From: Apostichopus japonicus
Taxonomy: Eukaryota; Echinodermata; Holothuroidea; Aspidochirotida; Stichopodidae
DNA length: 64,000 bases
Direction of reading: 5' to 3'
Assembly (NCBI RefSeq): GCF_037975245.1
Contig: NC_092572.1
Span: 21,130,489 to 21,194,488 of the forward strand
The notes below the pieces were generated by a model that was given only the letters and a program-made list of their open reading frames with translations, did no database searches and was not told the DNA's origin. Numbering within the stretch: the stretch's first letter is position 1; every line of letters starts with the position of its first letter. The position numbers and the translations under genes are program-made. Of the stretch, positions 15,513 to 63,444 are shown piece after piece.

Positions 15513-15631
15513 CTATATGAAACCACAAGAAATAACATGTTTCAGTGGGACTACAGGAGCATTTCTTCTTCCATATGCAGACAGAGAGTAGTAATCAAGA
15601 AGCTCCTTGCTGTTTATACAAACAAATCTTT

Positions 15632-16084: not shown

Positions 16085-16314
16085 TAAGTACGTTCATACA
16101 CCCTTGTAGTGCTTCTGCATACGTTTCTAAATGTAATGGAACTGTTCGTTTTGCATCAATAGGCACAGGGAAGAAAGTCCCAACACACATGTAAGATTGT
16201 CATCAACTATTACAATGTAAGAGACAAGTTCTTAAAGTTATGCAAATGACGCACACATCTCACACACCTCAGGTCGAGTGTGAATCACATGTTACTATTA
16301 CTCCTTTGCGATGA

Positions 16315-17035: not shown

Positions 17036-17037
17036 AT

Positions 17038-17140
17038 ACAATATGTGGGTCAAAGTTACCCTACTTAATGCACAAATGTTAATGACATGTCTACATACAC
17101 ACATGACATCATAAAAAATATTTAAAAATGACATTATTGT
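17038..17140 (+). repeat. Dispersed direct repeat, copy 2 of 2
   Basis: Nearly identical to 14,687-14,790, same orientation, about 2.35 kb away. It carries the word TGGGTCAAAGTTACCC and starts right at the end of the pseudogene's recognisable coding. Confidence 0.75.
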
Positions 17141-44199: not shown

Positions 44200-44600
44200 T
44201 ACACACTTAAAAATAATTGCTCAACATGGGGTAAAATGGAACACCTCTATGGTGTAAAAAGGGAACATGGTCAACAGATGTGTAAACTTTACACATTAAT
44301 GCTTTGGCAAAGTTTGACCTTACTGTGGGGTAATATTTTACCACACAATGTGTAAATTATTTTACCACATTAGCATTGTGTAAAATTTGCACAACAATGA
44401 CCATGTTCCCTTTTGTACCCCATTTTGTGTAAATTTTACCCAAATCAAGCAGGGCACTGGTTTGACCCCACTGTTGTGTAGTATTTTTGCAAAACAGTTG
44501 TGTAATATTAGCACACCTTTTAGGGTTACTTTTTTTGCAAAACAGTTGTGTAATATAAGCACACCTTATGGGGTTACTTTTACACACACTCTTGTGTAAA
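44200..44600. repeat. Left TIR and TGTGTAA subterminal array of element 1
   Basis: Many TGTGTAA/TTACACA words, plus a duplicated unit TTTTGCAAAACAGTTGTGTA (44,476 and 44,530). The opposed open frames 44,357-44,599 are translations of this array. Similar arrays near the termini of CACTA and other DNA transposons bind transposase; the same role here is inference. Confidence 0.75.
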
Positions 44601-45163
44601 TAATATAATTTTATGTATACTGTGAATGTTTCAAAATAGTGTCAAAAACATATTCTTTTGAACAATTTGATATAACTTCCATACTTGCATATGCTTGCGT
44701 GTTAAGTAAGGTTGCAATAATTTTAAGACTTTGGTATATATGACCCAACATGGGAACAAACATTGGCTCTTTGGCAAGGAAGCCTATGATCTCAGTGCAA
44801 GAAAATAAAAAACTTGTAACATCAAAATGAACTGATAAAATTTATTAAGACTCCTGTAAATAACTTTCAGCTTATCAGGAAAAAATTGAATTTTCTCTCT
44901 TGCATAAAACAGAACATGAAAATCATAGAAGTGAATACCATTACAGTATTAGCAGCAATACAGCCACATATATAGGTTAATAATATTTTTCACAGTAGGC
45001 TAAAATATTTTTGCAGGGGAGCCATTGCATAATGAAATGTACTTCTCTTTTTCTTAATTGTTATTATAATCAGGTTGGTGTGTGTGGGGAGGGGGGGGGG
45101 GGGCCACTGGCTATGGGCTTGCATATAATATCAACCCAAGTTTAGGTGAAAGACGAGTTTAGC

Positions 45164-45456
45164 TAGAAAACTTTCTGATTAACTTGTTTATGATGTCAAA
45201 GTTAGGAACAAACAAACTGAAAAAATGTAGATTTTGTTGGCTATATAATTGCTATGTGAGATTGATATCCAGGAAATACCCAGGAATAAAATATCATGAA
45301 AGTCACAAGGATTTAAAGGTCATGTGTATGTTTTACCTGCTTATTTCCTGGATATCAATCTCACATAGCAATTATATAGCCAACAAAATCTACATTTTTT
45401 CAGTTTGTTTGTTCCTAACTTTGACATCATAAACAAGTTAATCAGAAAGTTTTCTA
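45164..45456. mobile_element. Long foldback MITE, TA-flanked
   Basis: Arms of about 115 bp (TAGAAAACTTTCTGATTAAC ... GATATCCAGGAAATA) are essentially perfect complements around a ~65-bp loop. Both ends are at TA, which fits a Tc1/mariner-type target. The near identity of the arms suggests a recent insertion or arm homogenisation. Nested in element 1. Confidence 0.82.
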
Positions 45457-45499
45457 ACGTTCAGGCAGTATTATTTAGGATTAATGTAAAGTGTATAAT

Positions 45500-46160
45500 T
45501 ACTACGTGTTGGATAACCTTGCCAGATGCTTAAAACCCAATGAAACTCAACTTTACTAAGCTGTCATATTTCTCAAAATTCTAACATATTTACATCGACA
45601 AAAGTTACAATGTATTATATAGTTGAGGAACTAAAACAGAATTTTGAAGAAACTTAACTATCCCATATATGCTTTCACAGTTGTTGAATAAAACATACTG
45701 GAGACCTCAAGCCCTCTAAAATCACCTATAAGCTGTGATATTTCACACAAATCTAACATATAATAGAAAGAACTCAACACAAGTTTGAAAACACCAGAAA
45801 AATATCTATATGGAATGAAAGTAAAATCATCACTTATATGTTATCACAGTTGTTCAATAAAACATGCTGGAGAACTACAGCCCTGTAAAATCACCTATTA
45901 GCAGTGATATTTCACCAAAAAATTAACGTATATTAGAAAGAATACAACACAAGTTTGAAAACAACAGACAAATATTTATGTGGGATGAAACTAAAATCAT
46001 TGCTTATGTGTCGTGCACAGTTCTTCAATAAAACATGTTGGAGAACTAAGGCCCTGTAAGATCACCTATAAGCAGTGATAACGTATAATAGAAAAAACAC
46101 AACACAACTTTGAAAACACCAGAAAAATATCTATATAGGAACAAACTAAAATCATCAGGT
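45500..46160. repeat. ~170-bp tandem repeat, about four units
   Basis: Units marked by CACAGTT[G/C]TT[G/C]AATAAAACAT start at 45,676, 45,845 and 46,016. A more diverged unit precedes them (from about 45,500). Each unit contains CACCTATAAGC[T/A]GTGATA and CACAAGTTTGAAAACA words. Non-coding; just downstream of the SAMD3-like exon. Confidence 0.8.
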
Positions 46161-46682
46161 TAAACTGTGTAAAGTTTTACATAAACTTGTAACCTGAAGT
46201 TAATAGCAGCTAGCGGTCTAACATTTGTTTAGCTTTACATAGCACAGGCCAATGGATACAAAGAGCGGGCCCACTTCCAGTGCCTTCTCCTCAATGATGA
46301 CGAAGAGCTGCTGGAGCGAATTCCTTGTTAACAATGACGAAAATAATGCCATGTTGCTGACAGTGGTCTTACATAATTGATTTGAAATGATAGTATGCCA
46401 TGAGTGCCCTGATAGACCCTGGTTCAATAGGTACTTTAATATCATAAATGAGAGTGTCTAAAGCATTATACCCCCATGCCTGAGGTGGATAGCAGAGGTC
46501 CCAAATCTGGTAAGCCTTGTAGCAGAGGTCAATTGCTGCAATAAGTGTGTCTACCACCATTGCCTTTCGCTCAATGATGACGAAGAGCTGCTGTGGCTGG
46601 CAGTAGTTGCCTCCCAAGATCAAACGAATGGCTGTGTACATACATCAAATTGAGTCAGGTATTGCTCTAAGTTTACACCTTC

Positions 46683-47665
46683 CTGAAAAGACAAGTTATT
46701 ATATAAAATTTATATATATATTGACCACAATCTGAGAAATATGTATAGGTAACCTTCCAGTTGTGTTGTTTTAAGCATAACTGACCAATGCAAGTAAAAA
46801 AAGAAACAGGTTTCTTCATGGGGAACTTCTACACCACACAGGTCATACTTTGTCTCACACCAAAAAGATTTGAAATATTATTTAATATCTTCTTTTCCAG
46901 CCCTATGAAGATTCCTGGTATAATGAATTATCAAAGTCTAAAAGTACCATGGAAATGATATGTTAGTTCTGACCAAAACCAGGGCAACTTATCTTGGTAG
47001 TATATTGCAGTAACATAGCCAGGTTCTGACAATGGGCGAGTTATGTGGGGTGTAGAGTCAAAGGGGCACTGGAACTATCAGGAATTTTCCCTTAAAAGAG
47101 GGTATCCCCATGCAACCCTCACCCATGGTTACTACTAGTTCATTTTCGTGATGGTATTTCCTTTTGAGGAAGAGGCATATTCCACACCCACCCCATTTGA
47201 CAACCATGCAGGTGCTCCAGGGTCAACAATCTATTTAACTGTACTTAGTGGAACTGATTACTATGAGCATAAATGCAGTATTTCAGGGCATTTATACTGT
47301 ACTACAGTAATACTTTTGATGATTGCCTGTGGCATCAGAACCATTACTTGAGTAATATTGCAACATTTATATATTGACCTCAATCTGTGACAACATCAAT
47401 GCTATGTTCACCAAAAACAATTGATTACAAGTTACTACGGGCTATTTACTAGCATGGTAATGATATATCATGCCATCTTCTGAAATGAGGCCCACCACTC
47501 AGAATTATGTCACAATAACATTGACAAACATGATAACCAAAAAGATCATACAAAGTATGGATAAAAGTTTGGGTGCAGAATCATTGTTATTTAAATATTT
47601 TGACCTCTGACCCAATAGCTTAACTGATATTTAGGATGAGATCGATGAACACCATACACAATAAG
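46683..47665. other. Interior of element 1 without recognisable coding
   Basis: The middle exons of a SAMD3-like gene would be expected here but none was recognised. A plus frame at 47,148-47,351 has no motif. Confidence 0.4.
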
Positions 47666-48116
47666 ATCTTTTAACGAAGACCGAGTTTGGGGATTATCTG
47701 TGTTATGCTCTCGTCATCCAGTAACTCAAATACTTCATCATCAATCCTGTGAGCTGTGGAAATTTGAGGAAAAATATTTTCCATATAACACTGTTACAAA
47801 GCTTAATAACAGTAATGACAAAGGACATGTTGCACATTAGGAAATTGCATCCGTAAAATGAACATTTATGGATATTGCAATCATCACATATTATTCCAGG
47901 CATTAAAAATAACCAGAGAATGAAAACATTTAATTGTGAAATAAAAACAAAATGCAGAGATATTAATGTGCTTACTGCTTAACCCACTCATAAACATAAC
48001 TTATTTTCTTCAGGTAAAAAGTCAACTGCGTTCAAAGGTTAAACATTAACATCATTATTTTATTAAGCCACCATGGACCAAGGTCTTAGTTAAAATGTAG
48101 GCTTCTTGTAGGCCTA

Positions 48117-48345
48117 CTTCATGTGACACACTGACATATCAAATATGAGATCTGTCCAAGCTTCCCTTCTTGAGATATCAGGTTTCGCAGTTTTTACAAT
48201 TTAACCCCTGGTGCCCCCAAATGACCATTGACCTCCCCAAAAATCAATGCGCTTCCTTGTCCCTAATGTGGTCACGTACACACCAAACATGAGAAGTCCA
48301 AAATTCCCTTCTTGAAATACTGTGTTTACAAGCTTGGCAGCACAA
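48117..48345. repeat. Two related ~145-bp units
   Basis: Both contain an A[A/T]ATGAGA..TCC..A.[G/A]..TTCCCTTCTTGA[G/A]ATA core (near 48,145 and 48,288), followed by a GTTT.CA word. Degenerate dispersed-repeat family. The minus open frames here are not genes. Confidence 0.45.
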
Positions 48346-49189
48346 ACACACACATACACCATTATGATTGCAAAGCTTACTATTTTCATCACAACTAACA
48401 AAGTGATGAAATTGTTCAATTTCAAACTGCCCCCTTTTCATTGTTTTCGCATTTAGCCCTAATATATGAGAGCCATGGGCTTGGTTAACTACTGCAGGAT
48501 CATAGTGAGGCTTATTTTAATGGATATGCTAGTCATGTTGAGTCTTTGCCTGGCCTTAAAACTAATATTTAACTGGTAATGTTAGCCTAGGCTGTATCGC
48601 TTGCCTACATTGTAGTGTTGGTTAAGGAGACCATGTAGAATTGGCTTGGGCCTAAAACATAAGCCAAAGCTAGGATGGTCCAACGTCGGCCAACGTTAGA
48701 CGTAACCTAAGTTACTCTCATACGTGAGTAATATCTTTAGTACGAACAAGATGGTGATGTGCACTACCTAGTCTCTATGAGCATGAAAAGAGAATCTAGA
48801 GAGGAACGAAAGGCTATATATGTAGGCTTGGCGCTTACTATTAGAAATAGCTTAGCCTAACATTCGACCTTACACTAACATTTATTCCTAACGTTAAACA
48901 AGAGTGAGGCCTAGGCGAAACGTACAGTATGCCGTTTAAAACAGTTTTCGATCAGCATTCAACGGTGAAATTGTAGTTCAAGACTTACTGAAATATTATT
49001 CTTACGGCATAAAAGGTTAGTACTGATGCCCGAAATACATCATCCTACCTTCGAATTGTGGCTTCAATTCTGCTAGGCCGATGTTTTCCAGAAATTGTGA
49101 AACGACTATCGAACTTTTAGTGGCTTCCATGTTTTCGTTCTGCAAGCAGCGACGCGGTATGAAAGCGTGTTTACACATCAAAGTTGTAA

Positions 49190-49423
49190 CATGAATGTAT
49201 TTTACCCAGTGCAGTGTAACAAATTACACCGGTATTTTGTTTTACCGGTAGAAAGGGGCAAACTGGTGCTTTTTTTTTTACACAATACGCATTTGTAAAT
49301 CATTACACCTGTGTCTGTGTCGCCTGATATACATGTTTTACTCAATGTTGTGTAAAAATTGCACAACTCTTTACCCCTCACTTTTATACCCCGTTAACTT
49401 TTACACATTGTTTTTACTGTGTA
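49190..49423. repeat. Right TIR and subterminal array of element 1
   Basis: TGTGTAA and TTTACAC words in both orientations, including GTTGTGTAAAAATTGCACAA and an ACCGGT palindrome pair, ending in TTTTTACTGTGTA at 49,423. Lies 60 bp upstream of the SAMD3-like start codon, so it may also act as the gene's promoter region. Confidence 0.7.
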
Positions 49424-49958
49424 GGAACATATTTACAATATCTTAGCTAGTATCACAGACAGGAAGTTCTTACATCACACCTCCCAGAAACCGTGAACTG
49501 CTTCTTAGGAGATAACCCACACTGTGGCCTCCAGTTTAACTTTCTTCAACAGAAACCCTACACCAGTTTGTGCACCTAATATTATGTAATCTTCAGCAGG
49601 ATGTGTGGTCATTGTCTCAGTAGCTTAACCACTGTTTATGTAGTAAAGTAAACATGTGGACAGAGTAACATCCTGCCCCATCCTCTTGTAATCCATGGTA
49701 ATTTAAGAGTGTGTAAGATGCAACTTTCACCATTTGTATTCAGTAGCAGATATCCAGCCAAGTGAAGATATAATAAACTTTGTTAAATTAAACTACTTGT
49801 TTGTGCCTTGATTTCTTGTTAAGTAAAGACTGATGGCCCCACTGCACATTCCAGACTGCCCACAGTGTTGGTGTCAAAATTAATAATGATCCTCTTTCCA
49901 TAAAGTGATAGCACCAATTGATTTTTGAGACTAATCTAATATTAATCTTGAAAATTAC

Positions 49959-50205
49959 CTTGAAGCACCATCTTTGTCATGTTCAGATTCATCAGATGAG
50001 TGAACTGATGGAGTATAGTCCGGACTACCTGGCGGTTTTTCGGTTTGTCCCGATGATGATGCCACAGCAGCAGACGGACCATCATCGCCACTGTGAGATG
50101 GCCCTGGTTGTTTTGATGGTGTTCCTGTCTCTGTTGGTCCAGTCATCAACTTCAATGGTGGTAGGGGGACCAGTGAACACTGTACTTCTACATGTGTTAC
50201 ATTCA
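49959..50205 (-). CDS. Acidic linker exon of the THAP/Kolobok gene
   Basis: Acceptor TTTTCAG at 50,206 and donor CAAG|GTAATT at 49,959. Reads NVTHVEVQCSLVPLPPLKL, then Pro/Ser/Gly-rich PSKQPGPSHSGDDGPS, and SPDYTPSVHSSDESEHDKDG. The VQCSL word and the acidic SSDES stretch occur in the same place in related THAP-Kolobok proteins. The AG|G join to the 42,886 exon is exact, across a 7-kb intron. Confidence 0.6.
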
Positions 50206-50434
50206 CTGAAAATTAGAATGAAAGATTATACCACATACATACAGTAGGCTGCTCTTGGACAGGGGTCAGCCGCCTAGATGGTTCACTTGTCTTTTCTCAA
50301 GGAAAACATATCCTCCTACTTTATGTGGCTGCAAAAATTTGGGCCACTTACACCATGGGCATTGCAAATGACTTCAGCTTGGTTTCATAGTATAACTACA
50401 ATGTTATCTCCCTTCTCTCAGTAACTATAGATGT

Positions 50435-52032
50435 CCCCGGACAAGTTTTTTTTTCAGTTTTGCGTTCTGTTAGTTTAAAGGTCCCTGGAGAGGTTGACGC
50501 GCTTCAGCGTAAACCTCTCCGGGGTATGAATTGTTTTGATGTTCGGTTCACCTCGGAGGCTGCCCGCGTCCGAGGTGTCTATGTGTTGGAGGGAGTTGAG
50601 GGACTGAAGGTCACACCGTATGACAGTTCCGTGTGGGTGACAGTCCTCCATCTCCCTCTGGACATGTCTGGACATGTTGTTGTGCGGACACTGGGGCGTT
50701 TTGGGAAAGTGACCGGCTACGAGGAGCCGGAATTCCTTGATTGTAAAGGTGTCAAGACCGGGACTAGACGAGTTCTAATCCAACTCAAGTCCGATATCCC
50801 CTCTACCTTGTGGGCTAATGGGCACAGGGCCCACATTGGATATCCGGGCCAGCCTCGCACTTGTTGGAGGTGTGGGCTGGAAGGGCATGAGGCCAGGTTG
50901 TGCCCGAACGAGCGGTGTAGCCGCTGTTTACAGGTTGGGCATACCCTGGCCGAGTGTAAAGGGGATATCGTGTGTAACTCGTGTGGGAAAACGGTCCATC
51001 TGGCCCGTTTATGCCCAGACCGCTCATACGCCGCGAGAGTGGCTACGGGCGTGTTTGAAACGGTCCCCGTCCCGGCCTCTGACACCGTACCACCTGATGC
51101 TCCGGTCATCGCCCCAGTGTCCGACACTAGCGCCCCGGTGGAGGCTTTGCTCCCCCTTTCGTGTCCGACCTCTCCCCTGATCGAACTTGCCGAGACTGCC
51201 AGCCTGCCCACTGAGGCAGAGCAGGACAAAACGGCGGAGATGGTACTAACGGAGTGGCATGCGGCGCAGGATGCCGCTTGTACTGGTTTACCGGTGGCTA
51301 CGCCCGCTATCGGTGATACTAGTTGGGCCCCGAGTCAACCGGCCCAAGAGACATTAAGTGGCCCAGATTCTGACTCGCCAATGGAGGACTGCACTACAGC
51401 CTTATTAGTTGTGGCTAAGGAGTCCTCCGATTGGTTTGATGAGACGAAACAGGCCACTGATCTCATTGACTCGAGTGGCCCTTCCACCCTACCCGCAGCC
51501 GCTTCCGCTATACCGGATACGATTGTCGCTAGTGGACCTCCTGTTGCTGACAGGGAGGTCCACTCGATCAATGACGAGGAGCTAAGAACTCTACTCCCTC
51601 GTAAGAAAAGGGGGAACACTGCCAGGGGCCTGAAAAGACCCACATTGGGAAAACTTCGCAGGTAATGCGCAGGCCTGTTGTCTACCATCGGGACGGCGTA
51701 CCCCGGATGAAGTTTTGTAGTGGGTTATTTTTAAGGTGTGTGTGTGGGGGGGGGGGGGGTTGTGTGGTCGTTACATAATATGGGTTGGGAGTTTCTGTTT
51801 GTGGTTTGGAGTTGGCTTTTTGGGGCTGGTTTGTGTAGCTTTATTGTTTTGGTTCTGTTGGCCTTTGGGTCCTTGTCCATTACATGTCACGTTGAACGCT
51901 GTATACATTTGTGAGTGAGAGATTTCTGTTTGTGGGTTTTCAGTTGGGTTTATGGTGGTTGTTAAACAGACTGGAATTGTTTTGGTTTTGTTGACCTTGG
52001 TCCGTGTCCGTTTTTCTTTGCACGTAAAAAGC
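50435..52032 (+). mobile_element. ORF1-only LINE-like element (half-LINE) with 11-bp TSD
   Basis: Flanked by identical ACTATAGATGT (50,424-50,434 and 52,033-52,043). Contains a 5'-truncated ORF1 followed directly by about 365 bp of 3' UTR with a G-run, a TTGTGTGGTCGTTACATA word and the end CCGTGTCC...TTTGCACGTAAAAAGC. There is no trace of ORF2. A second copy (19,840-20,476, minus) has the same 3' UTR joined to ORF1, so absence of ORF2 is a property of the family and not of this copy. The end shares CACGTAAAAAGC with the full LINE. Confidence 0.85.
50436..51665 (+). CDS. Zinc-knuckle ORF1 protein of the half-LINE
   Basis: Open from the truncation point; about 410 codons remain and the true start is lost. 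N-terminal part: VDALQRKPLRGMNCFDVRF, LEGVEGLKVTPYDSSVWV and GKVTGYEEPEFLDC, an RRM-like region as in Tx1/L1 ORF1. Then three tandem CCHC-type knuckles: CWRCGLEGHEARLCP, CSRCLQVGHTLAEC and CNSCGKTVHLARLCP. The rest is an Ala/Pro/Thr/Ser-rich acidic tail ending in basic KKRGNTARGLKRPTLGKL. It should bind element RNA. No stop or frameshift is visible over 1.2 kb. Higher GC content than the flanks. Sequence differs from ORF1 at 34,139-34,578. Confidence 0.85.
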   Translation, partial: PGQVFFSVLRSVSLKVPGEVDALQRKPLRGMNCFDVRFTSEAARVRGVYVLEGVEGLKVTPYDSSVWVTVLHLPLDMSGHVVVRTLGRFGKVTGYEEPEFLDCKGVKTGTRRVLIQLKSDIPSTLWANGHRAHIGYPGQPRTCWRCGLEGHEARLCPNERCSRCLQVGHTLAECKGDIVCNSCGKTVHLARLCPDRSYAARVATGVFETVPVPASDTVPPDAPVIAPVSDTSAPVEALLPLSCPTSPLIELAETASLPTEAEQDKTAEMVLTEWHAAQDAACTGLPVATPAIGDTSWAPSQPAQETLSGPDSDSPMEDCTTALLVVAKESSDWFDETKQATDLIDSSGPSTLPAAASAIPDTIVASGPPVADREVHSINDEELRTLLPRKKRGNTARGLKRPTLGKLRR

Positions 52033-53055
52033 ACTATAGATGTAGCCTATATATTTTCCTGTGAAGCCATCAGGTATAGCCTCCTCAAACACCCTCGTCA
52101 GGCAGGCGGATATGATGGATAAAATACAATGGATCCCCTAGTCAGCCTGCCCAGATGTGCAGTTTTAATTGCTATTTTACTTTCAATGAGTTCTGTTTCT
52201 AAAATTTTGGCCGCTGTACTCACTTCTGCTATAGAATACTCTACAGATTAATGAAAGTTTTCTTCTTCCTTGTATTACCCTAGCTTACACTTCTCCACCT
52301 CATATCCTCCTCCCCCCCCCCACCCATCAATCACTTTATTTATGCCTAATTATGGCGACCTTTCGGGTGTCACACTGCTGCCTCCCTTTCGTCGGGTAGC
52401 TTGCCCCCATATATATGCCTCAATGGTTTACTGGTGGGGAGTCCTTTTATCCCGTTCAAAACTTACCACTTACATCTTTAACGCCTGTGACCACCCTCCC
52501 CTCCTCCATTTCCCAACTGTTTTTCGGTAATTACAAGCACATGTATAAGATCATGCTACCTTTAGATGGAGATGTACATTCTGCAGAATTTGGCCTTGGT
52601 ATTTTCACTGTAGTTGGTTGGGGAACAGCTTCTACATTAGTCTAAGTAGTGAAAATTGGGAAAGAAAATAACAAGGAAGTTATGAAAGTTCATTTAAGAA
52701 TGCAGATTGATTTGTTGCAAAGCACCTGTCACAAGTGTTTTCTCTTGTAACAAAAATTGCAGCCCTACTACCAAAAATGGCAAAATATAAGGATGTCATT
52801 TACTGTGCAACATATGAGCTATGACTCGGACATTTCATTTTGTGATGCTTATTGTTCTGGATTTTTCATCATGTACCACTGATTAAATTGCTTTAGTTAC
52901 TCCTACTAGCCTACGTCTAACTTTATCGTCGCTTTAACTAATTTAGGGCTAACTAACTGAACGAAATTATAAGAATTAGCCTATGTTAGTAATAATACTA
53001 AGTTAGTCCTTGTACTTTGTAGTACCAGTAGGCCTAGGCCCGAAAATACACTTAC

Positions 53056-53406
53056 TCTTTTCCGATCCAGCTTTGCAACTACTGGTCTACTTGTTCCTAT
53101 CTCTGCTCTAGATTTGGAGATACTTTCTCCAAATATAGACGGAACGGCATTGTCTTGTAGACGGCGGGTTGTTGGAGTTCCAATTCCAAGTTGTGCGGAT
53201 AGGCGATAGGAAGAAACGAAACTTTCAATAGTGAAGTGCGCACCGCACACATGAGATTGGCTCGAAGGTCCAAGCCAATCTTTCCTTGTTCTCTTCACGG
53301 CAGCAACCCACAATCTGTGGTACTTTGAATCCTTGGGAAATTTATGCAATTATACATTTTGTTGGTGAGTGTTACTGCACCCGCCGACCACGCACCTCTT
53401 CCCCAT
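53056..53406 (-). pseudogene. THAP-domain exon with in-frame TAA
   Basis: The ATG at 53,406 starts MGKRCVVGGCSNTHQQNV, then TAA at 53,352-53,350, then in the same frame LHKFPKDSKYHRLWVAAV, KRTRKDWLGPSSQSHVCGAH, F..., and RRLQDNAVPSIFGE, ending KR|GTAAGT. This is a full C2CH THAP domain: C5, C10, the later CGAHF Cys/His pair, the invariant Trp and AVPSIF. THAP domains bind DNA and occur at the N-terminus of P-element- and Kolobok-type proteins. The nonsense codon lies where a Ser or similar residue normally precedes LHKFP, so only a downstream start could give a partial protein. Confidence 0.78.
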
Positions 53407-54556
53407 GATAGAAATAATTTGGAGATAAATCTCGGTCTTACTCTTACTCTAGTCGTATTTAGACAGCTAGGCCTGCTGAGTGCATTGGTACTAAGCTATG
53501 GCTGCATCCAGTGTTTGACGAACACAGAAACTTTCTTTTACTGTTGTGCACCCATTCTCATATAATATTTTGTTTACTGTCCGTGACGTATTGTTTACGT
53601 CTTGGATCTCGGTAAGCATATTAGGCCTACATAGTTTTGGTAACATTGGCGGTTCCCCCGTGACGTCATTATCTTACGGAATGAACTTGGTTATTAACCT
53701 AATTAAAACAACAAAGAAGCAATCGTGGAACTCCAAATTTGGAGAATAGGGTTTTGAAATGTAGCTTCTCAACTTGTGTAAGTTTGAAGGAAATCTGTTA
53801 CATGTCACTTGACCTTTAATGATTAACGTTAGTCTATCACTCAAATTGTCCTAATGTCATTTTCGATCTTCTTTTAGTTGACGGACTATAATGTAGACAA
53901 GCCTTGTTTTTAACTTCCAGGGATCATAAAAATGTAACTTTACTACCCACAAAGCTCAAGAGTATGAAAAAGTTAGGTAAATATTGTGTAAAAATGTCAG
54001 TTAACACGGGCAAGTCGTACACTAATGACTCAACATTTAAGATTGAACCGTTTTCGCGAAACTAGCTGTTCCAGTGTCCATCCTATGAATACTTGCCAAG
54101 CGTGATTCGGCTGTGTAAATACGAACTTCGATTGATGATTTCAACTTTATTTCATATGAAAAGAACCTGAAAAGTACTCACCATTGGGTAAATAGGTATG
54201 TCGTTTTCAGGTCATATCGGTACATCTATCAAATTTGAAAAACTTGGACGAAAGAACTTGTTTTCGTACGCAAAATATGGACGTTTCAACATAACTATGT
54301 GATAACCATGCTGATTTGTGTGTGCTTATTGTCATGTGATTGTCATTTGGCAGTAATCCTGCTTTGCGATTGTATACGGACTAAATCCTACCATTCAAAG
54401 AGAGAGTTTCCAAGTGCTTTCGTGCCAAAAATAGTACCAAGTTTACCGAATAACTAAAAAACGTGCGCAAATTTTTGGTGGAACAAAGCGGATTTACGAA
54501 TAATATAATTTTTGTGAATTTTTGAGAGTAATTTTGAGTTGCCCCTCTGACTGGAC
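53407..54556. other. Upstream region of the THAP gene
   Basis: AT-rich; presumably contains the promoter of the THAP gene. Plus frames at 53,344-53,749 have no motif. Ends at the left TIR of element 2. Confidence 0.45.
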
Positions 54557-54810
54557 TACACTGTTAAAAATAATGGGCAAAATTTACCCAACTTTTTAAC
54601 CAACGTTGGGCATGTATTCAGCAACCTCAAAAGTTGGGCCAAAAAAATGTTGTTGGGCAAATCATTTAACCAACGTATGGGTTAAGGCACCAGTAATGTA
54701 TCCATCTGTTGGGCAGTTCATTTAGCCACCTGTTGGGTGTATACTAAATTTGTCCCAATTGTTGGACAATTCATGGATTTTGTTGGGCATTTGCAACAAC
54801 CAAATGTTGG
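54557..54810. repeat. Left TIR and TTGGGC subterminal array of element 2
   Basis: Repeated ACGTTGGGC, GTTGGGCAAAT, CTGTTGGGCAGTTCATTTA and TTGTTGGACAATTCAT words follow the TIR. Same architecture as element 1 but with a different repeated word. The minus open frame 54,722-54,916 reads partly through it. Confidence 0.75.
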
Positions 54811-54900
54811 GTTCATCCTGAACCACTTCCAACTCACACTCTGCTACACTTCTTGATGTAATTTTTACGAATAGTCCATCACTGTCATCTACCTCGGGCA

Positions 54901-56684
54901 TAATTTGTGACGACATTTCGGATCATTTCCCTGTTTTTACTATTGTTGACATTGACAATGTTAAAACTAGTATTCCGTCAATTACTTTAAGGAGGCACGT
55001 TAATCCAGCAACTATACGGTTATTTCGGTCTGCTATTGAAAACGAAACTTGGCAAGATGTCTTTTATGGCAATGATGTAAACGTTGCATTTGATCAGTTT
55101 AATAAAATATTTAGTAAGCATTTAAACAACTGTCTTCCGTATGTTCCTAGTACAAAGAAGGGTATTAGTGACAAGAATGACTGGATGACTCCTGCCATCC
55201 TTAATTCTTGCCGTACAAAGAATCGTCTATATAAAAAATATCTCCGTAGCCGTACTGCAAACAACTTGAGCGACTACAAACGTTTTCGTAATCGTCTTAC
55301 GTCTGTTATCAGGCTGGCCAAAAAGTCTTACTACACCAATATGTTTAATAATAACAACCAGGATGCGAAAAGTATGTGGCGGTCAATAAATACCCTTTTA
55401 CATGGTCGACAAGCTAATCGCACTCCTGAACAGATTAATTATCAGGGGGTCAGTTTTTCTAATCCATTGGATATTGGAAACATTTTTAATGATTATTTTA
55501 CTACTATTGGTCCAGCCACTCAACATAAGATTCCTAATGTTAATTCTCACTACAAAATGTACCTGCAAGCACCAGTCATTAACTCTTTATTCATTATTCC
55601 TGCAACAAGAGATGAGGTCCTTAAAGTACTTCTATCACTCAAGCCATCCGCTGCTGGTTTTGATGGTGTTTCTGCTATTATTGTAAAACATGTTGCCCAT
55701 TCGTTATGTATTCCACTCACATATCTTTGTAATCTCTCTTTTGAGCTTGGTGTTGTCCCCACATCTTTAAAAATAGCTCGAGTTGTTCCTGTCTTTAAGG
55801 CCGGTGAAAAGGAATCCGTGAATAATTATAGACCCATTTCAGTTCTCCCATGTTTCTCCAAGGTAATCGAAAAAATAATGTTCTCACGGTTATATAACTT
55901 TATTGCTAAGCATAATTTACTGTATAACTATCAATTTGGTTTCCTTCCTGGCCGCTCAACTACACATGCTATTTTACATTTTACTTGTAAAGTTATGGAA
56001 GCTTTCGAAAATAATCAGTATGCTTCTGGTATATTTCTGGATCTGTCGAAGGCGTTTGATACCCTTGACCATAACATTTTACTTGAAAAACTTAGTCATT
56101 ATGGAATCCGGGGAACTGTACTTCATTGGTTCAAAAGCTATCTTGCTGATCGTCACCAGTTTGTTGTTATTAGTAATATAAATTCTGTTTCTAAGCCAAT
56201 TAAGTGTGGTGTTCCTCAAGGGTCCATACTTGGTCCATTGTTGTTTATAATTTATGTTAATGACCTCTATAGAGCCAGCAACAAATTTCATATAATCTCT
56301 TATGCTGATGATACCAACCTGTTCTTTTCCAGTAATGACATTAATTTTCTATTGGATACTATACAGAATGAGTTTACATATATTCATGATTGGTTTTGTC
56401 CAAATAAATTGTCACTAAATGTTAAGAAAACTACCTCTATTGTGTTTAGTACACCTTCAAAGCACTTAAATCCTAACATTAATAGTATCAGACTTTGCGG
56501 TGTTGATGTTTTGCTGTCTAAGACTACTAAATTTCTTGGGGTTTATATAGATAATCATCTTTCTTGGAATAATCATATTCAGAATATTTGTATGAAAGTG
56601 TCTAAAGGCGCTGGAGTTCTTAATAGACTTCGCCAAGTCATTCCCAGAAGCACATTGGTCACTTCCCTATCTTACATATTGTAA
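54901..56684 (+). pseudogene. Jockey-like reverse transcriptase ORF, frame-broken at the 3' end
   Basis: The frame is open from the truncation (CDDISDHFPVFTIVDI) to 56,684. RT motifs in order: SAAGFDGVSAIIVKH, NNYRPISVLPCFSKVIEK, YQFGFLPGRSTTHAILHF, GIFLDLSKAFDTLDH (catalytic Asp), CGVPQGSILGPLLFIIYVND, ISYADDTNLFF (catalytic YADD) and KLSLNVKKT. A one-base frameshift near 56,672 separates the C-terminal part (PYLTYCNVIWG, RIQPLYLLQKRAIRYI), which continues to about 57,000 with further breaks. Catalytic residues are intact, but the ORF lacks its N-terminus. Confidence 0.85.
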
Positions 56685-57326
56685 TGTTATTTGGGGCAGT
56701 ACCCATGCCTCTAGAATTCAACCCCTTTACTTACTTCAAAAGAGAGCCATTCGTTATATTTGTAATGCGGATTACCTCCAGCATACAGCACCCCTGTTTA
56801 CTACTCTTAACGCTCTTAATATCTACGATATAAATCGTTACTATGTTGGTATTTTTATTTTCAATTGGTTACATGATAATGCTCCGTCGACTTTTCGCAA
56901 CTATTTTCAGTTACGTAACGATCCTTATCCCAACCGTGCGCCAAATCAATTGACTGTTCCTTACTTTAGACTGTCGGCGTAAAACTTTGGAATTCCCTCC
57001 CTACTACTATTACTGGTTGTAAAACTCTGAACACCTTCAAAAAACGTCTTAAAGAGTATCTTATATCAAACTATCATTGATTTTGTATTTTCCTTTCTTT
57101 GCCATCTTTGTTCTGTTTTCTCTGTATACTTAAGCTTTCTTTCTATGTTTTATTTGTAAAGGGGTGTCAACGTAAATAAGCTCTGCAGAGCTTCTTGTTG
57201 GCACTCCTCAATCTCTTGTTCTCTTGTACATTTACCCACGTCTATTGTCATAATTGCATACTTTAATGCGAGAGATTGAAATAAAGTCTTATGAATTGAA
57301 TTGAAATTGAATTGAATTGAATTGAA
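54901..57326 (+). mobile_element. Jockey/CR1-superfamily LINE, 5'-truncated, (ATTGAA)n tail
   Basis: Begins within the endonuclease C-terminus (DDISDHFPVF, the terminal Asp-His pair), continues through RT, and ends in a 3' UTR with GAAATAAAGTCTTATGAATT followed by tandem ATTGAA units to about 57,326. It inserted into the left part of element 2. No clear target duplication. Related in structure to Nimb/CR1/Jockey-type LINEs; the exact clade is not assigned. Confidence 0.82.
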
Positions 57327-58313
57327 CTGTTGGGGGTTTCTTAGATCGTGTTGGAATTCTAAAAAATCTTAGACATCACATCCTTTGAAATAAAGAAAGA
57401 TACTGTATTTTGTAATACTTGGAACACCTTTATTCAATGACCTTGAAGAAGACATATAACTATATGTCTTGAAGAAAAGAAACTTGTTGACTGAACAGTA
57501 TAATTTGATATAAGAAGTCTTAAATTCAGGTATTCTTGAAACAAGGGTATGAACTGAAATAAATTAATTAATGAAGCCAAATGTTTCATTTATGTAGGGT
57601 TCACGTACATTCCTTGGAAACTCATTTTGATCTGAAAATAACCTTCCCTAAAGTGACATTAACATTTGTGGCCTCAATTTTCTTAAGAATCCCACAGGAT
57701 AAATTTTATGGAAAAAAATGCCAATGGCTTTGTGATTCCTTGCCATGAGAACTAAAATCCCCCTTGTACATCATACACCAACTTTTCATTAATATTTTAA
57801 CCTTTTAACTTAAGTTAAACCCCAAAAGTTTCAGTATTGTGGATCAAAAGCACATATACACCCTCCATTTCTGGAGTACCCATGTATGAAAGTGTACTGG
57901 TTAAAATTAATATTTAACCAATGCAAGGGTGGATCAAAATGGGCTGCAATCAAGGGGTGTAAAGCTCCATACTATAGTTAAAAAGGAAGCAAAACAGGTT
58001 GTCAGCAATGTTCTTGTACATAAATGCTTACTGCCTTCAGCCCAGTACTGCCCTTGCTGTCTTTTCTTGTTTAGGAAATGGAAATTTGCTGTGGTCAGAC
58101 TCACTCCCTCTCTAGATCTATGTTAGGACCTATGTTTTCTGACCATAGCTAATCACTTATTACCTTTGTAGTCTTTTAAACTCATCATTAATTAATAATT
58201 ATGTGGGACCATGTACAAAGTTGAAGTTACAAATTTAGAGCAATTTCTTTTGTTCGTGTTCCACAATCTAATGATATTGGCAAAGCATTTTCCACAAAAT
58301 GATTACTACATAA
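57327..58313. other. Interior of element 2, no gene recognised
   Basis: AT-rich. Contains one small perfect hairpin (AAGACATATA/TATGTCTT, about 57,450-57,475). The plus frames at 57,929-58,501 have no motif. Confidence 0.45.
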
Positions 58314-59574
58314 AGGCCCAGTCACATCTCACCGGATTGCACGAACGGACAAGAGTACGCGCGAAAAACAGTCATCCGGCTATTTCCGTTGGCAAAAGTT
58401 GTCGCGCATGCATCTGGGGGTTGCAGCGTACCGGACGTTCAACGGTGAAAACGGATTACAAACGTACAAGGGACGGAAAGCAACGGACGAACAACGGATG
58501 AACAACGGAATAACTACGAACGAACTAACGAACACCAACGGATAGTAACGAATTTACAACGGACAATTAACGGATAAAGAACATACAAAACGTAGGAGTA
58601 CCGGAAAAGTAACGGACATACCGGACTAGCAACGGAGAAGAAACGGTCTAAAACCTGGGCCTCCGGAGTGCCTCAAAATCAGGGGGCATCCCCATGAAGT
58701 TGATGAAAGATTTTGGTCTTCCATTCGCAGCTCCTGCATTAGTTGGTCCATGGAGCTATAAACGAGCTCCATGGTTGGTCATAAAGACTAAACTGCCGTC
58801 TTCTCTGTGGACCAAGCCAGGCCCTAGACCAGCATTTACGCCGAGCACGTCTCTTCCTTCTCTTCTTAACTTGTTCATTGGTTTTGATGTTGGCTTCAAT
58901 GATAAGCATCTGTGCTTTTAAAGCTGACAGTGTGTTCTGAAGCTTGAATCTTTCTGAAGGGTCCATGATGTAGGTGTTGACGGTAGAGGTTATAGGAGCA
59001 GAATGAGGCGTGGGACGCTTGGAGTGGACAAGGTGGAGGTACGCTGCATCTCCGTTCTGTGTCCGTCTGTTATACTTTCCTGGCCTGAGTTCTTCCGTTT
59101 CTTTCGTGTAACGTCCGTTACCTATCCGTTCATTGTCAGTTCTATTCCTTTGCACTTCCGTTATTTCTACGTTAGCGTCCGTCGAATATACGGTATAGGT
59201 ACTGTACTTCTACGTTTCATCCGTTCTTTGTCCGTTAATGATCCGGTGAGCAATAGCAATAACCAGAGACGAACGGAGAAATACAGTATGCCAAACGCAT
59301 ACAGAACGAGCAAAACGCATGAGAAACTGATAAAACGGAAGCTTAACGGATTAGTAACGAATAAATAACGGAGACATTTTTCGGTGGATGTCCGTTCCAA
59401 GTTTTATGCATGTTCAAAATCGACACCGGACAAACCGGACCCTCCCGGTAAAGAAACGTAGACGGACGGAGGAGAACCGCATACTAAACGGATACTAACG
59501 TACATCAACGGAGTGCCATTTTTTGTCTTCGTTCCCTCTCCGTTATTGCAATCCGGTGAGATGTGACTGGGCTT
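58314..59574 (-). mobile_element. PIF/Harbinger-type element, deletion derivative
   Basis: Ends AGGCCCAGTCACATCTCACC and its complement (AAGCCCAGTCACATCTCACC) are near-identical inverted repeats of about 30 bp, flanked by TAA (58,311-58,313 and 59,575-59,577), the 3-bp target expected for Harbinger-type elements. The interior is full of ACGGA/TCCGT words on both sides. Only the N-terminal part of a Harbinger-type protein survives. Confidence 0.78.
58690..58966 (-). pseudogene. N-terminal fragment of a Harbinger-type transposase
   Basis: ATG at 58,966 reads MDPSERFKLQNTLSALKAQM, then a basic stretch (KKRRKRRARRK) and CWSRAWLGPQRRRQFSLYDQ. Harbinger transposases begin with 'RRxWxRxWLxRRxxxGxYxxLxxEL'. 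A palindromic CCATGGAGC patch and a frame change separate it from a further family block (SFINFMGMPP) at about 58,695. The catalytic DDE domain is absent, so the product could not transpose by itself. Confidence 0.6.
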
Positions 59575-59577
59575 TAA

Positions 59578-60869
59578 CTAGCCAAATTGTTGAATAGGAA
59601 AAAGTGTCTTTTTTAGATGAACATGAATGGAACACTTTTAAACTTTTGTTCAAATGAATAATGGTATTAAAGGAGATATGAGGGCTGGCAAAAAATGTCT
59701 TTGAAAATGTTCTTCATGATACTAACAAAGATCCACAAATTTTGATATATTGCTATGCTAATTCCTGTGTTTCTGTGCTGTGAAGCAAGCTATACAATGT
59801 TCATATGATTTAAAAACTGATAACATTCTTTAGGGCCATTCCACGTGACGTAAGTCACAAATCAGAGCGAAATTTTACACTTGTTTTCAATATCATGTTC
59901 AGTACAAGTCTGTCGTTAAGCTAGAAGCCTCTAGTTACTGAACTTTGAAAACACAAAATAAATTCTGTCACCACTGTGAAACATTAATGCTTTCCCATTG
60001 CGAATTATATCGCCCTCAACATTTGTCACGTAAGTCACGCAGAGAAATGAAGAATTTAAACTTTTTGGAGGAAATCAATAAATCCTGTGAAGCATTGAGA
60101 GAAATCTGCTAAGGTGCCTATTATATCTGAAAAGGACACATTGAGGAATAACTTCAAGGTAAAAATTTAATTGATATGCATTTTATACTGATATTCTAAT
60201 GCAAATTAGTCACGTAAGGCACACTGTTCAGTTTCCTTTCAGTTTCCAAATATACAAGATAACACAGGCTAAGGAAATGTTTGCAAGTTCATTACATTGA
60301 GATGGGGAAGGGGGAAGGGTCTATTCTACATATGTAACAATGTAAAAATAGTGGATAGAAAGAGCACATATGTCAGTTCATTGTACACTAGCTCATCACA
60401 CAGTAGTTGCTGGAAGAATTTTAATTGGTGGTGCAAATCAAGAGTAAGTTTCCAAAAACATTTGCAGTCACATTGCGCAGGAAGCTCTGCCTTTCATGGG
60501 TGCCCTTAATAATGTTGTCATTTTGAATACAATAACAGAGTAAGTTCAGTTGTACATAAAAAGTCCTATGGACTAGTTCTGCGAAATATCTTTACTTAAG
60601 TGCTACAGTAGCTAAATAGTTCCTTAATTAGCCGTAAAATCACTGCATTACTGCCCATTTCAGCACGTTCATTACACAAATGTAACCTACATATTCTTGT
60701 ATCATCCACTTTTTTTACCCAATTCCATGATAAATGCATGCTTCAAAAATGAATTTCTAGACACCTTGTAATTTGTGTCGAAGTTTGAAACAGCGGTATT
60801 GGGGCTTTGGATATGTATCCCAATATGATACCTCGAGGAAAAAAGGCTCCGAGCGAGGTGATAAACTGT
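59578..60869. other. Interior of element 2 downstream of the SAMD3-like gene
   Basis: No gene recognised. Probably 3' flank of the SAMD3-like gene inside element 2. Contains recurring GTCACGTAAG words (59,848, 60,027, 60,210) of unknown meaning. Confidence 0.4.
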
Positions 60870-61052
60870 TTAAGGACTGGCAGCATTCTTCATGAAAGCT
60901 CTGAAAGACCGGATGGAGGAGGAAAGATTCTTCATTCCTGATTGCTTATATATGCAACTTTCAATGAAATCCCAAACATTTCGGCAGTGGTGCTGGTACT
61001 GCAAGTTGAATATGTGTGCTTTATAGCAGATGTCGACAACTTCAGAGAGTGT

Positions 61053-61304
61053 GCTTTTTACGTGACCCGTCATACGGGATACAAAACGTCACGGCCAAAC
61101 GGCACTACCAAACCATCCCATTCTTACAAACGAACCTCAGGTCAAGCGAGCCAAAAAAAAGTACATACGCTCACCGACCTGCAGAGACAAAACGCCCAAC
61201 CCCCCACTGAAATATTAAAAAACTACAAAAGGACGACCAGCACGCAGCGAAACAAAACACCCTTCCCCAGCACACCACCGTCCAAAAAAGGCAGCCCTAG
61301 ATAC
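61053..61304 (-). mobile_element. Tx1-like LINE tail inserted in a coding exon, 14-bp TSD
   Basis: Minus-strand 252-bp tail, flanked by identical ACTTCAGAGAGTGT (61,039-61,052 and 61,305-61,318). Ends at its 3' side in CACGTAAAAAGC. The hairpin stem is CCCGT/ACGGG, a compensatory pair relative to CCCGC/GCGGG. It lies inside the terminal SAMD3-like exon of element 2. Confidence 0.92.
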
Positions 61305-61849
61305 ACTTCAGAGAGTGTCTGCACCCTCACTGCGTGCCTCTCCAAGATAACAAACACTTGTGATGGTGTCAGCTTGAAGTCTGAGTAAAACCCAAGGATG
61401 AAAGGCTGAGATCGTCATTCACTGCTTATTCCCTGTAAGTATGGAGGCAAATGGGTGTGCTCCTGTGAAACCAATAGAAGCAATGAAAAGTAGCTTTTAG
61501 TATTCCATGGTAAAATTTATTTATTTCTGGTGTGTGCTATATTACAGCCAAAACCATTTACTTTATGCATATCACAAATATGTTATTGAGCTTGTAGTAT
61601 AAATTAAAAATGGAAACGCTCCCTTTTGATATGTCTAACCAGTAGGATGATACCAGCACACCACTGATTCATATGTAGAATTAGTTTGGAGAGACTTAAC
61701 TGACTTAAGATCATCCAAGTGAACAAGAAGATTGTCGTAGGGCATTAGTTGGCACCTCCTTCCCATTCGAAATATAAATGTAGATCACAATGGGTACATG
61801 CTAGTTTTGAACTCAGGGATTTTGCACAATCCAATGTCCAACAATAGCA

Positions 61850-61925
61850 ATACTACAAATAATACTACTGATACTACTAATACTACTACCACCAACGACA
61901 ACGACAAGAAGAACAAGAACAAGGG
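61850..61925. repeat. (TAC)n/(AAC)n trinucleotide microsatellite
   Basis: Runs of AATACTACT, ACTACCACCAACGAC and AAGAACAAGAAC. Confidence 0.8.
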
Positions 61926-61974
61926 TTTTACAGATCAGTGGAGCCAGTCACAATTCTCCAACAATCCTGGAGAG

Positions 61975-62170
61975 TAAGTTGCTGCAGTCTTTGTAATCCA
62001 CACAGGGTTTTGCTCAGGTTCCTCACAAGTTCACACTTTCACCTGAGTGGAGTGAGGCCATCAAGATAGAGTGCCTTGCCTAAGGACACAATGTAGCCGG
62101 GATTTGAACCACTGATTCTTGGATTACGAGATTCAAACCCTAGCTGATTACAAGCAAAGTCAGCAGCTGA
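61975..62170 (-). mobile_element. tRNA-derived SINE
   Basis: On the minus strand: an A-box-like ATCAGCTAGGGT, an anticodon-loop-like CTCGTAATCCAAG, a good B-box GGTTCAAATCC, and a body reading GTGTCCTTAGGCAAGGCACT and CTCACTCCACTCAGGTG. This body is the conserved 'GTGTCCTTGGGCAAGGCACTTTA...CCTCACTCCACCCAGGTG' module seen in SINEs of many deuterostomes and molluscs. No tail or duplication was determined. Confidence 0.6.
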
Positions 62171-63099
62171 TATGAATAATGCATTTAGACATACCCTTTT
62201 TAATTCAATAAATGATGAAGCATGATCTATTTCCGCTGATCGTCCTCCAGTTTCGGCCTAGCTCCTGGTCCCAAAAATAAGTGGTAACATGCGCAATGAC
62301 AGGTTGTCCTTCTCCTCTGCAAGTGAAAACCAAAATGCCAAATTTAGTAAAGCATAAAAACCTCAAAATCAATGGTTGTTGTAATGTAATAGTCTATCGG
62401 GAAGTAAACACCAAATTCAATAGTCATCAGGTTAGAAACAATAGGGTAGGTAAGTAGCTGGGGGACCCCTCCCATTCAAAGAAAGAACGGTGATCCTGTA
62501 TTCAATATGGGAAATATACAGAACATACTTAACATCATCAACCTGGTTGTTGCTGAGGTAATATGGTTAAAGGTCATTGTTTGACCTCTGCTGACTTAAT
62601 TTATTGTCCTTTGACCTTATCTACAATAAACACTAAGAAATTACCGTAATATGCTGAAGCTACTGTAGCTTGCCACTGTAGCATAATAAAAACGATACAC
62701 ATTGTAAACTTAACCCAAGATTTCAACCACGGATCCCCATAGGCTTATTATAAGGATAGAAAAGGTTATTGGAAGTTCGAACTCCACACTTAACCTTAAC
62801 TAGCCTAGGAGTAGGACTCGCTTAAGTAATCTAGGCTAGGCATATAGTACGTACGTCGATATACAGGTATCCTTTTGTCACTGTGATAGGCTACACTACT
62901 GTATAGGCTCTATACGCTAACGTTAGTATTACTAGTACTAGGCCTAGCATAGGAGTACAAAATGTTGATGACAATTGTGTGAAAGAATCGTCCCAGTTTA
63001 TTCCGATTACTTCAATCCCCTGAAATGATTACCTTTCATAAACTGAATTATGTCGGGAACAAACAACCCCCAGCTCTTGAGTAGATCTTCCATTTCGAC

Positions 63100-63444
63100 T
63101 TTTGAGGCTGTCAACTCGACGGAATATGTAACCCTTCGTCGTGCACGCGCGCTCAAGCACACTTTGCATTCAAAGTTGCCCAACGTTGGTAAACATCGCC
63201 AAGGTAAAGCCGAATGCTTGCCCAGCGTATGGTATAAAGAACCGAAATTTCGCCCAACATACGATTACGATGACAGAAAAGACCAACATGTGGACAAATA
63301 TGAGCACGGAGTTTACCAACTCGATGGGTAAACAAACTAATCTGCGATTCGATCATTTTTATATATAAATTGGGCACTATTTGACCAACACAGTTGAAAG
63401 GGTACTTGCCCAACAATTTTTTTACCCAGTGTTTTAACAGTGTA
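63100..63444. repeat. Right TIR and TTGGGC subterminal array of element 2
   Basis: GCCCAACG, CGCCCAAC, GCCCAGCG, TTGCCCAAC and TTGGGCAC words up to TTTTAACAGTGTA at 63,444. It overlaps the promoter side of the SAMD3-like gene (ATG at 63,093). Overlapping open frames here translate the array. Confidence 0.7.

Follow-up and report, generated by a model that had tools for sequence, protein, structure and literature searches.

SAMD3-like genes in the sea cucumber Apostichopus japonicus belong to CACTA elements whose long copies very probably encode a RAG1-like transposase and a SAM-domain partner

We examined a window of 64,000 nt from Apostichopus japonicus (GCF_037975245.1, NC_092572.1:21,130,489-21,194,488, forward strand) and found that two TIR-bounded units within it, A and B, are real mobile elements. 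The gene that they carry, which we call SAMD3-like in line with the original prediction, belongs to these elements. Both units are deleted copies without a transposase. We are confident that they are non-autonomous and belong to an extensive group of cut-and-paste CACTA (EnSpm) elements in animals, of which the long copies encode a RAG1-like DDE transposase together with a multi-exon SAM-domain partner that would act by a TnpA-like mechanism. The original prediction proposed an undescribed DNA transposon family. Because the long copies encode a transposase of the CACTA/EnSpm-RAG1 type, the superfamily is a known one rather than a new class of transposon, and it is the conserved SAM-type second gene that is apparently undescribed. 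Among the open-access papers listed in our searches, judged by titles and abstract openings, none describes such a gene in animal CACTA elements, and the portion of PMC5753468 consulted mentions EnSpm/CACTA once and SAMD nowhere.

Unit A (44202..49421, gene on the minus strand) is an F1-family CACTA element with internal deletions, and unit B (54559..63442, minus strand) is a deleted F7-family CACTA element with nested insertions. The TIRs are CACAGTAAAAACAA / CACACTTAAAAATA in unit A and CACTGTTAAAACAC / CACTGTTAAAAATA in unit B. These ends had been described as TACAC-type; all four were confirmed as ends, but the true termini are CAC..GTG, and the TA on either side of each unit (44200..44201 and 49422..49423 for unit A, 54557..54558 and 63443..63444 for unit B) is the target duplication, outside the TIR. 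With one SAMD3-like terminal exon as the query, 150 matches were scored out of 324 candidates, many of them in near-identical sets across contigs. The multiplicity of SAMD3-like genes in this genome is due to transposition, and a transposon partner gene may also explain their abundance in some other animal genomes. The longest stretch shared by two copies had sharp ends in all eight pairs compared (3.2-6.8 kb at 94.6-99.8% identity), and in each of the 16 initial SAMD3-like loci a ..GTG end lay at, or at most 9 bp from, the 3' limit of similarity. The inverted repeats of the relatives have CACTG, CACTC, or CACAG termini. Among elements with both ends read, 19 of 19 had CA(C)..(G)TG termini, and the fixed target duplication that the original prediction proposed to look for was 2 bp in every one (16 TA, 2 CA, and 1 CG); four further copies, with one end beyond the sequence examined, stand outside this count. 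A search requiring matching dinucleotides located TIRs in one of the three divergent families tried (L021) and found none in L025 or L026, and a looser TIR pattern gave no convincing end in eight loci (L020 and L022-L028).

Of four long elements read completely (9.5-15.1 kb), three contain an open frame for the transposase, 831-877 aa in length (F1, 858 aa; F9, 831 aa; L021, 877 aa). Alignment of 11 transposases gave 43 invariant columns, among which D327, D422, C442xxC445, H650xxxH654, and E674 are present in 11/11. According to the portion of PMC12730594 consulted, the C(2)C and H(3-4)H pattern is common to EnSpm, Mirage, Chapaev, Transib, and RAG1; here too, both motifs lie between the second D and the E of the DDE residues, as that source specifies, with the AlphaFold model guiding the choice of the putative catalytic acidic residues. 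The Pfam family Transposase_21 (PF02992) matched five of the 11 at one common place (E 2e-5 to 0.028), all below the cut-off (best match, 24.3 bits versus 28.6), and the Pfam search gave no such match in the other six. The AlphaFold model (pLDDT 79) has a predicted RNase H-like core with a large helical insertion, which is the RAG1/Transib fold. In VIA comparisons, the model aligned with RAG1 (6dbo_A; Z 21.8, 455 residues aligned, rmsd 4.4), the amphioxus RAG1-like protein (Z 19.7), and HzTransib (Z 17.7), and the predicted C terminus aligned with a BAH-like fold (Z 9.6, 102 residues aligned). The transposase is a DDE enzyme with N-terminal C2H2-like fingers, a predicted RAG1-like catalytic core, and a predicted BAH-like C terminus.

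The likeness to RAG1, the amphioxus RAG1-like protein, and HzTransib extends from the aligned model to the C(2)C and H(3-4)H motifs. Moreover, the termini resemble the CACAGTG-type signals of RAG systems, and ProtoRAG likewise has two genes. Transib and RAG systems, however, produce a 5-bp target duplication. Since the duplication here is 2 bp, we describe the transposase as RAG1-like but do not class it as Transib. The partner also differs from those of RAG1/RAG2 and ProtoRAG: it carries a SAM domain, and Pfam shows no relation between it and RAG2. If the predicted fold is correct, ProtoRAG would be joined by a second transposon lineage in which an enzyme of RAG fold goes with a constant partner gene.

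The SAM domain of the second protein was recognized in F1 exons 1 and 2 (SAM_1, 26.1 bits, cut-off 23; SAM_2, 25.7 bits, cut-off 20.5). In F9 the SAM match fell under the cut-off, and the second genes of L022 and L027 have other, unrecognized N-terminal pieces instead of SAM. For the body of the second gene, Pfam showed no family and a PDB sequence search gave 0 matches. By analogy with TnpA of maize En/Spm, we propose that the second protein would be an end-binding partner. One promoter near the left end could give rise to both proteins by alternative splicing or intron retention; the second protein would recognize family-specific subterminal words and multimerize through its SAM domain, pairing the two element ends, after which the transposase would cut at CAC and insert with a 2-bp stagger. 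Inner arrays of short words, already noted in the original prediction, are indeed present. In unit A, TGTGTAA occurs 10 times in the 2 x 350 terminal bp (44202..44551 on the 3' side of the gene and 49072..49421 on the 5' side) and once in the central 2 kb, and in unit B GCCCAAC occurs 8 times in the 2 x 350 terminal bp; the maxima of 100 shuffles were 9 and 7, respectively. The top 7-mer beat all 100 shuffles in seven of the nine elements examined, some of which are closely related, while the F6 array only equaled the top shuffle (10) and that of F9 (5) fell under it (6).

Alternatively, the second protein could serve mainly as an anti-silencing or chromatin factor, the role described for TnpA and, by analogy, for RAG2, rather than in end pairing. 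We consider this reading rather unlikely. TnpA also reactivates methylated promoters, according to the portion of PMC1636069 consulted, and the BAH-like C terminus in the transposase model suggests a contact with chromatin, but family-specific word arrays at both ends suit a DNA-binding partner at least equally well. The two roles are mutually compatible.

The second gene might also be a host gene that a CACTA element captured and now carries as a passenger, with no part in transposition. We consider such a passenger improbable. Vertebrates have a host SAMD3 gene, and copies that lack the transposase or most exons of the second gene were still multiplied (F6 at C16 and C17, and F3), which means that an element can do without either gene in cis. 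Against this, each of the 11 families read has a related second gene beside its transposase, weakly in L027 (a single exon at E 6.7e-4) and in the body of L026 (E 0.0063; terminal exon, E 2.3e-9), with a profile that was extended using matches up to E 0.01. In 9/9 further transposase families sampled, the related gene lies downstream, with weaker evidence in two. Across the genome, the second gene was detected within 15 kb of 56 of the 150 scored transposase matches, always downstream and on the same strand (56/56, and 0 otherwise; 0.37 expected). The other 94 matches had no second gene under two single-sequence queries, and the families sampled among them were positive by profile. A profile search in three rounds recovered exons of the second gene at 15 of the 16 loci and gave no match on the minus strand; in the sixteenth, L024, the second-gene body is 53% identical to that of L026. 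Further, the divergences of the two genes correlate over 10 families (r 0.74; 0/5000 permutations). Between L026 and L028, roughly every second position differs in each gene (0.49 and 0.52), yet the second-gene body of L026 is still one open frame. In all three elements with the 5' end read, second-gene exons lie on both sides of the transposase, whose frame follows the second SAM exon and precedes the next second-gene exon (full splice model for F9, exon positions for F1 and L021); alternative splicing or intron retention could therefore yield both proteins. L024 and L026 have a SAM-like exon downstream of the transposase, so this nested layout is not universal.

Plant EnSpm elements have a 3-bp target duplication. 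The sea cucumber elements differ from plant CACTA/EnSpm in their 2-bp duplication and in the SAM domain of the second gene, and resemble tnpA/tnpD of maize En/Spm in that the second gene and the transposase are interleaved, a layout taken here from gene models only. They also share CAC..GTG ends, subterminal word arrays, and a DDE transposase (its Transposase_21-like region being matched below the cut-off) with plant elements such as maize En/Spm, with its TnpA and TnpD (portion of PMC1636069 consulted, and general background). In the part of PMC12730594 consulted, fungal EnSpm elements have a 3-bp duplication and the CMCT group ranges over 2-5 bp; the 2 bp observed here (19/19 copies and the empty sites) is a short duplication of this kind. 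The fungal ESTA elements (Kojima 2025, PMC12730594, in part), likened by description only, are similar in their EnSpm-like transposase and TA duplication, whereas duplications of the sea cucumber elements can also be CA or CG. SmTRC1 and the animal TRC elements (DeMarco 2006, PMC1636069) are likewise animal CACTA elements with 2-bp direct repeats, present in 7/14 copies, and their second proteins are alternatively spliced, as far as the portion consulted describes them. TRC termini start with CCC rather than CAC, and that portion reports no detectable relatives for the second proteins PrA and PrB, whereas the second gene of the sea cucumber elements is conserved across families. This conserved gene is a candidate for the TnpA-like partner, which the animal CACTA elements described there lacked.

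A poorly named, multiplied SAMD3-like family becomes the partner gene in an established transposon superfamily, with a simple rule for its re-annotation. Activity could be tested directly on the near-identical copies that have open frames. More broadly, and only tentatively, animal CACTA elements might be a general two-protein system of a RAG1-fold transposase and a conserved partner that binds subterminal words and has an N-terminal polymerizing domain (SAM in several families); fish and invertebrate SAMD3-like genes, and possibly vertebrate SAMD3, would then descend from the partner.

In the window, the SAMD3-like gene is the only element-encoded coding remnant found by profiles in units A and B, and it had been suggested, with no known transposase recognized, that its protein might itself be a new type of transposase. 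That suggestion was dropped once full reads of F1 and F9 revealed their transposase frames, and we regard it as very improbable. The long copies encode a DDE transposase of the conventional kind, whose predicted fold is RAG1-like, and it is from such an element that unit A derives by deletion. The main pieces of unit A match F1 end to end at 89-94% identity, while F1 stretches 1275-1974, 2386-11488, and 12281-12584 are absent; the 9.1-kb internal stretch among these contains the entire transposase frame. The main deletion junction lies at 47669..47673, with F1 similarity stopping at 47673. It truncates SAM exon 2 (47673..47753, minus strand; profile match E 3.3e-9, splice acceptor read). Unit B is, piece by piece, 91-99% identical to L011/L012, and a profile search found no transposase pieces in it. 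Two nested insertions in unit B are missing from L011 and L012, one at 58314..59583 and one at 54835..57348 (plus strand), where a reverse-transcriptase-like frame (54822-56684, stop to stop) was recognized by eye. The net size near 5 kb given by the original prediction reflects units A and B as deletion derivatives.

The placement of the gene was as predicted. The ATG lies about 290 bp inside the right end in unit A (at 49130; SAM-domain exon 1, 49049..49130, minus strand) and about 350 bp inside it in unit B (at 63093; exon 1, 63033..63093, minus strand). Exon 1 was read from the sequence as ending G|GT in both units, and relatives have the same exon (L011 and L012 in the case of unit B). 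The terminal exon was matched in both units by a profile that includes their relatives: in unit A (46372..46709, minus strand) in two frames (46372-46644, E 1.2e-27; 46623-46709, E 0.0035), and in unit B (60873..61414, minus strand) in two parts (60873-61088, E 2.7e-20; 61226-61414, E 2.7e-9), since a 253-bp insertion (61053-61305) splits it. A remnant of the penultimate coding exon of unit B lies at 62261..62362 (minus strand; E 3.5e-5). Neither unit A (three frames on the minus strand) nor one F6 element, a copy without transposase (all six frames), yielded anything useful in Pfam searches. For the model of the second protein (pLDDT 70, pTM 0.40), Foldseek and VIA-align gave no significant fold match (best VIA row, Z 4.5), including to the RNase H-like proteins with which a comparison had been proposed, although the protein may still have such a fold; residues 83-165 aligned with homeobox-type proteins at Z 4.3-4.4, under the meaningful level.

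A degenerate TIR pattern (at most one mismatch) picks out the four claimed ends in the window and no other site, but chance alone would give 2.6 matches, and at least 4 occurred in 31/100 shuffles. We accept the TIRs of both units as real because relatives have the same ends and empty sites exist. An ordinary family of immobile host genes that happen to be flanked by repeats would fit a pattern that is by itself within chance, but near-identical copies on many contigs share the same ends and 2-bp duplications, and the empty sites refute this reading, which is almost certainly wrong. The search for empty sites covered nine of 12 joined sites, the ninth (L012) by 195 of 200 letters. We count the L012 site as weak because identity to the paralogous site reaches only 83% and that site reads CC in place of the CA of the element. 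Empty sites with a single TA were found for F6, where the match extends just 15 bp beyond the junction, for unit A, where the site lies in a paralogous repeat, and for unit B, where the sites are ∼140 bp.

Two elements bounded by terminal inverted repeats lie where the original prediction had placed them from the sequence: unit A (44202-49421) and unit B (54559-63442), both with CAC..GTG ends once the target duplication is excluded from the bounds. The arrays of short words further in are genuine, with words that differ between families, and the predicted gene landmarks were recovered: an ATG ∼290 or ∼350 bp inside the right end, a G|GT at the close of exon 1, and a terminal exon 2 to 3 kb in. 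We call this the second gene and presume it to be SAMD3-like, a label that comes from the earlier sequence reading and general background. Unit A corresponds to an element of family F1 that has lost F1 positions 2386-11488, and with them the transposase and most second-gene exons; it also has two smaller gaps. Unit B belongs to the family of loci L011 and L012, carries two large nested insertions, and has a terminal exon interrupted by a 253-bp insertion. By eye, one nested segment (54822-57348) is non-LTR-like, its frame resembling a reverse transcriptase and its 3' repeat being of GAATT type, and the other (58314-59583) is an inverted-repeat element with ends GGCCCAGTCACATCTCACCGG and abundant AACGGA words; the relatives L011 and L012 have neither.

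Used as a query against the genome (671.6 Mb, 35 contigs), the terminal exon of unit A had 150 scored matches among 324 candidates. These matches make up several families, in which groups of near-identical copies occur on different contigs. We sampled eight families at two copies each (16 loci). In all eight copy pairs, the longest stretch in common was 3.2 to 6.8 kb at 94.6 to 99.8% identity, and in 16/16 loci a ..GTG end lay at, or at most 9 bp from, the point where similarity stops on the 3' side; the dinucleotide after this end is TA, CA, or CG. The flanking dinucleotides matched in all 19 copies with both ends read (16 TA; 2 CA, L004 and L012; 1 CG, L005), a count that leaves out four copies with one end beyond the stretch taken, L006 to L008, whose left ends were not sought, and L021, whose ends were found by demanding matching dinucleotides. 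Under random pairing of left and right ends, the chance of all three non-TA copies matching is 2/(19 × 18 × 17), or ∼0.0003. Joined flanks were built for 12 elements, and 9 of these served as empty-site queries. Paralogous empty sites for unit A, unit B, and F6 were continuous across the junction with a single TA. For unit B, 11 of the matches listed covered ∼140 bp at 94 to 98% identity, one of them read base by base; the unit A match extends 44 bp beyond the junction and the F6 match only 15 bp. The L012 empty site is weak (83% identity, with CC in place of CA), and L014 is flanked by a tandem repeat; the other units of this repeat contain the uninterrupted site.

Reading further 5' yielded complete copies of 15.1 kb (F1), 9.5 kb (F6), 11.9 kb (F9), and 10.8 kb (L021). 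On the strand of the second gene, F1 and F9 have single-exon open frames of 858 and 831 aa, and the open transposase frame of L021 is 877 aa; the complete F6 copy lacks such a frame. F6 copies (C16:24926865 and C17:25609642 of the source genome) and F3 copies are deletion derivatives without transposase that have multiplied, are near identical, and retain proper ends. They were probably mobilized in trans.

Among 11 transposases from 11 families, 43 alignment columns are invariant, including D327, D422, C442xxC445, H650xxxH654, and E674. According to Kojima 2025 (PMC12730594), EnSpm, Mirage, Chapaev, Transib, and RAG1 have in common a C(2)C motif and an H(3-4)H motif between the second D and E. 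Pfam Transposase_21 matched 5/11 transposases, always near residues 300 to 470 and always below the cut-off (best E value, 2e-5), and did not match the other six. The nearest structure to an AlphaFold model built from the 11-sequence alignment (pLDDT, 79.4; pTM, 0.72) was RAG1 (Foldseek E value, 4.5e-10; VIA Z, 21.8; 455 residues), with Z scores of 19.7 for amphioxus RAG1-like and 17.7 for HzTransib. In the model, a long strand (319-331) contains D327, another strand (408-421) ends immediately before D422, and E674 falls in a helix (671-687) downstream of a large helical stretch, a predicted placement that agrees with expectation for a RAG1-like fold. The last ∼130 residues are modeled as BAH-like (best Z, 9.6 over 102 residues); in the F1 transposase (L017/L001), residues 719-851 resemble the BAH domains of DNMT1, ORC1, and ZMET2 (Z, 8.2 to 9.6). 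This C terminus may be a chromatin-reading module within the transposase itself.

The original prediction proposed a possible undescribed family of DNA transposons. The superfamily, CACTA, is already known, and among the open-access papers listed in our searches (Repbase being outside them), none describes, in its title or the start of its abstract, a SAM-domain or SAMD3-like gene as part of CACTA elements.

A stop-free splice model of the F9 second gene has 10 exons and encodes 506 aa, and the transposase frame (5164-7656) lies entirely within its intron 2 (5160-7863). In F1 and L021, judging from exon positions and not from a full splice model, the second SAM exon is immediately 5' of the transposase and more second-gene exons are 3' of it. 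Pfam SAM_1 and SAM_2 were both above the cut-off for F1 exons 1 and 2 and below it for those of F9; no significant Pfam match was obtained for the remaining F9 protein or for the second-gene bodies of L024 and L026. A second-gene profile (seeded with F9 and F6, three rounds of extension, matches up to an E value of 0.01 admitted) found exons on the coding strand in 15/16 loci and nothing on the opposite strand of the 16 in any round. In the sixteenth locus, L024, the second-gene body is 53% identical to that of L026, so a related gene is present in 9/9 additional transposase families chosen for divergence. Evidence is weakest for L027 (one exon; E value, 6.7e-4) and L026 (body, 0.0063; terminal exon, 2.3e-9). 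L024 and L026 have a SAM-like exon downstream of the transposase (SAM_TNK E values, 0.021 and 0.00069, both below the cut-off), and at that position L022 (3033-3581) and L027 (2688-3047) have other N-terminal pieces with no significant Pfam match, possibly reflecting domain swapping in the partner protein.

Two genome-wide single-sequence searches placed a second gene within 15 kb of 56/150 scored transposase matches, in all 56 cases downstream on the same strand and never otherwise (expected, 0.37); the other 94 do not indicate absence, because sampled families among them are profile positive. Interfamily distances of the two genes correlate (r = 0.74, reached by 0/5,000 label permutations; 36 of the 45 pairs among 10 families, each sharing 25 or more second-gene columns). 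This fits the two genes having been kept together through most of family divergence.

DeMarco 2006 (PMC1636069) reports 2-bp repeats and several spliced products for animal CACTA elements, notes that a single transcription unit of maize Spm gives rise to tnpA through tnpD, and found no relatives of the second schistosome proteins. By analogy, the SAM protein could be a functional animal counterpart of the maize-type second protein: it would bind the words that are specific to each family at the two ends and would multimerize, after which the transposase would act. We consider the chances of such an end-pairing role about even; that the SAM protein is mainly anti-silencing seems to us rather doubtful.

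Other pieces were seen in or near the window. Between units A and B, a 424-aa frame (50391-51665) with CCHC-type knuckles is gag-like by eye. A third, broken CACTA relic (10452-17111) retains, on the minus strand, a terminal exon (10452-10688), a second-gene body containing stops (12387-13472), and a transposase piece (15516-15692); another transposase piece (16393-17111) is on the plus strand, opposite to the rest. A further SAMD3-like terminal exon lies ∼2.5 kb beyond the right edge of the window (C12:21196983-21197192, minus strand), with a score equal to that of F5 copies L007 and L008.
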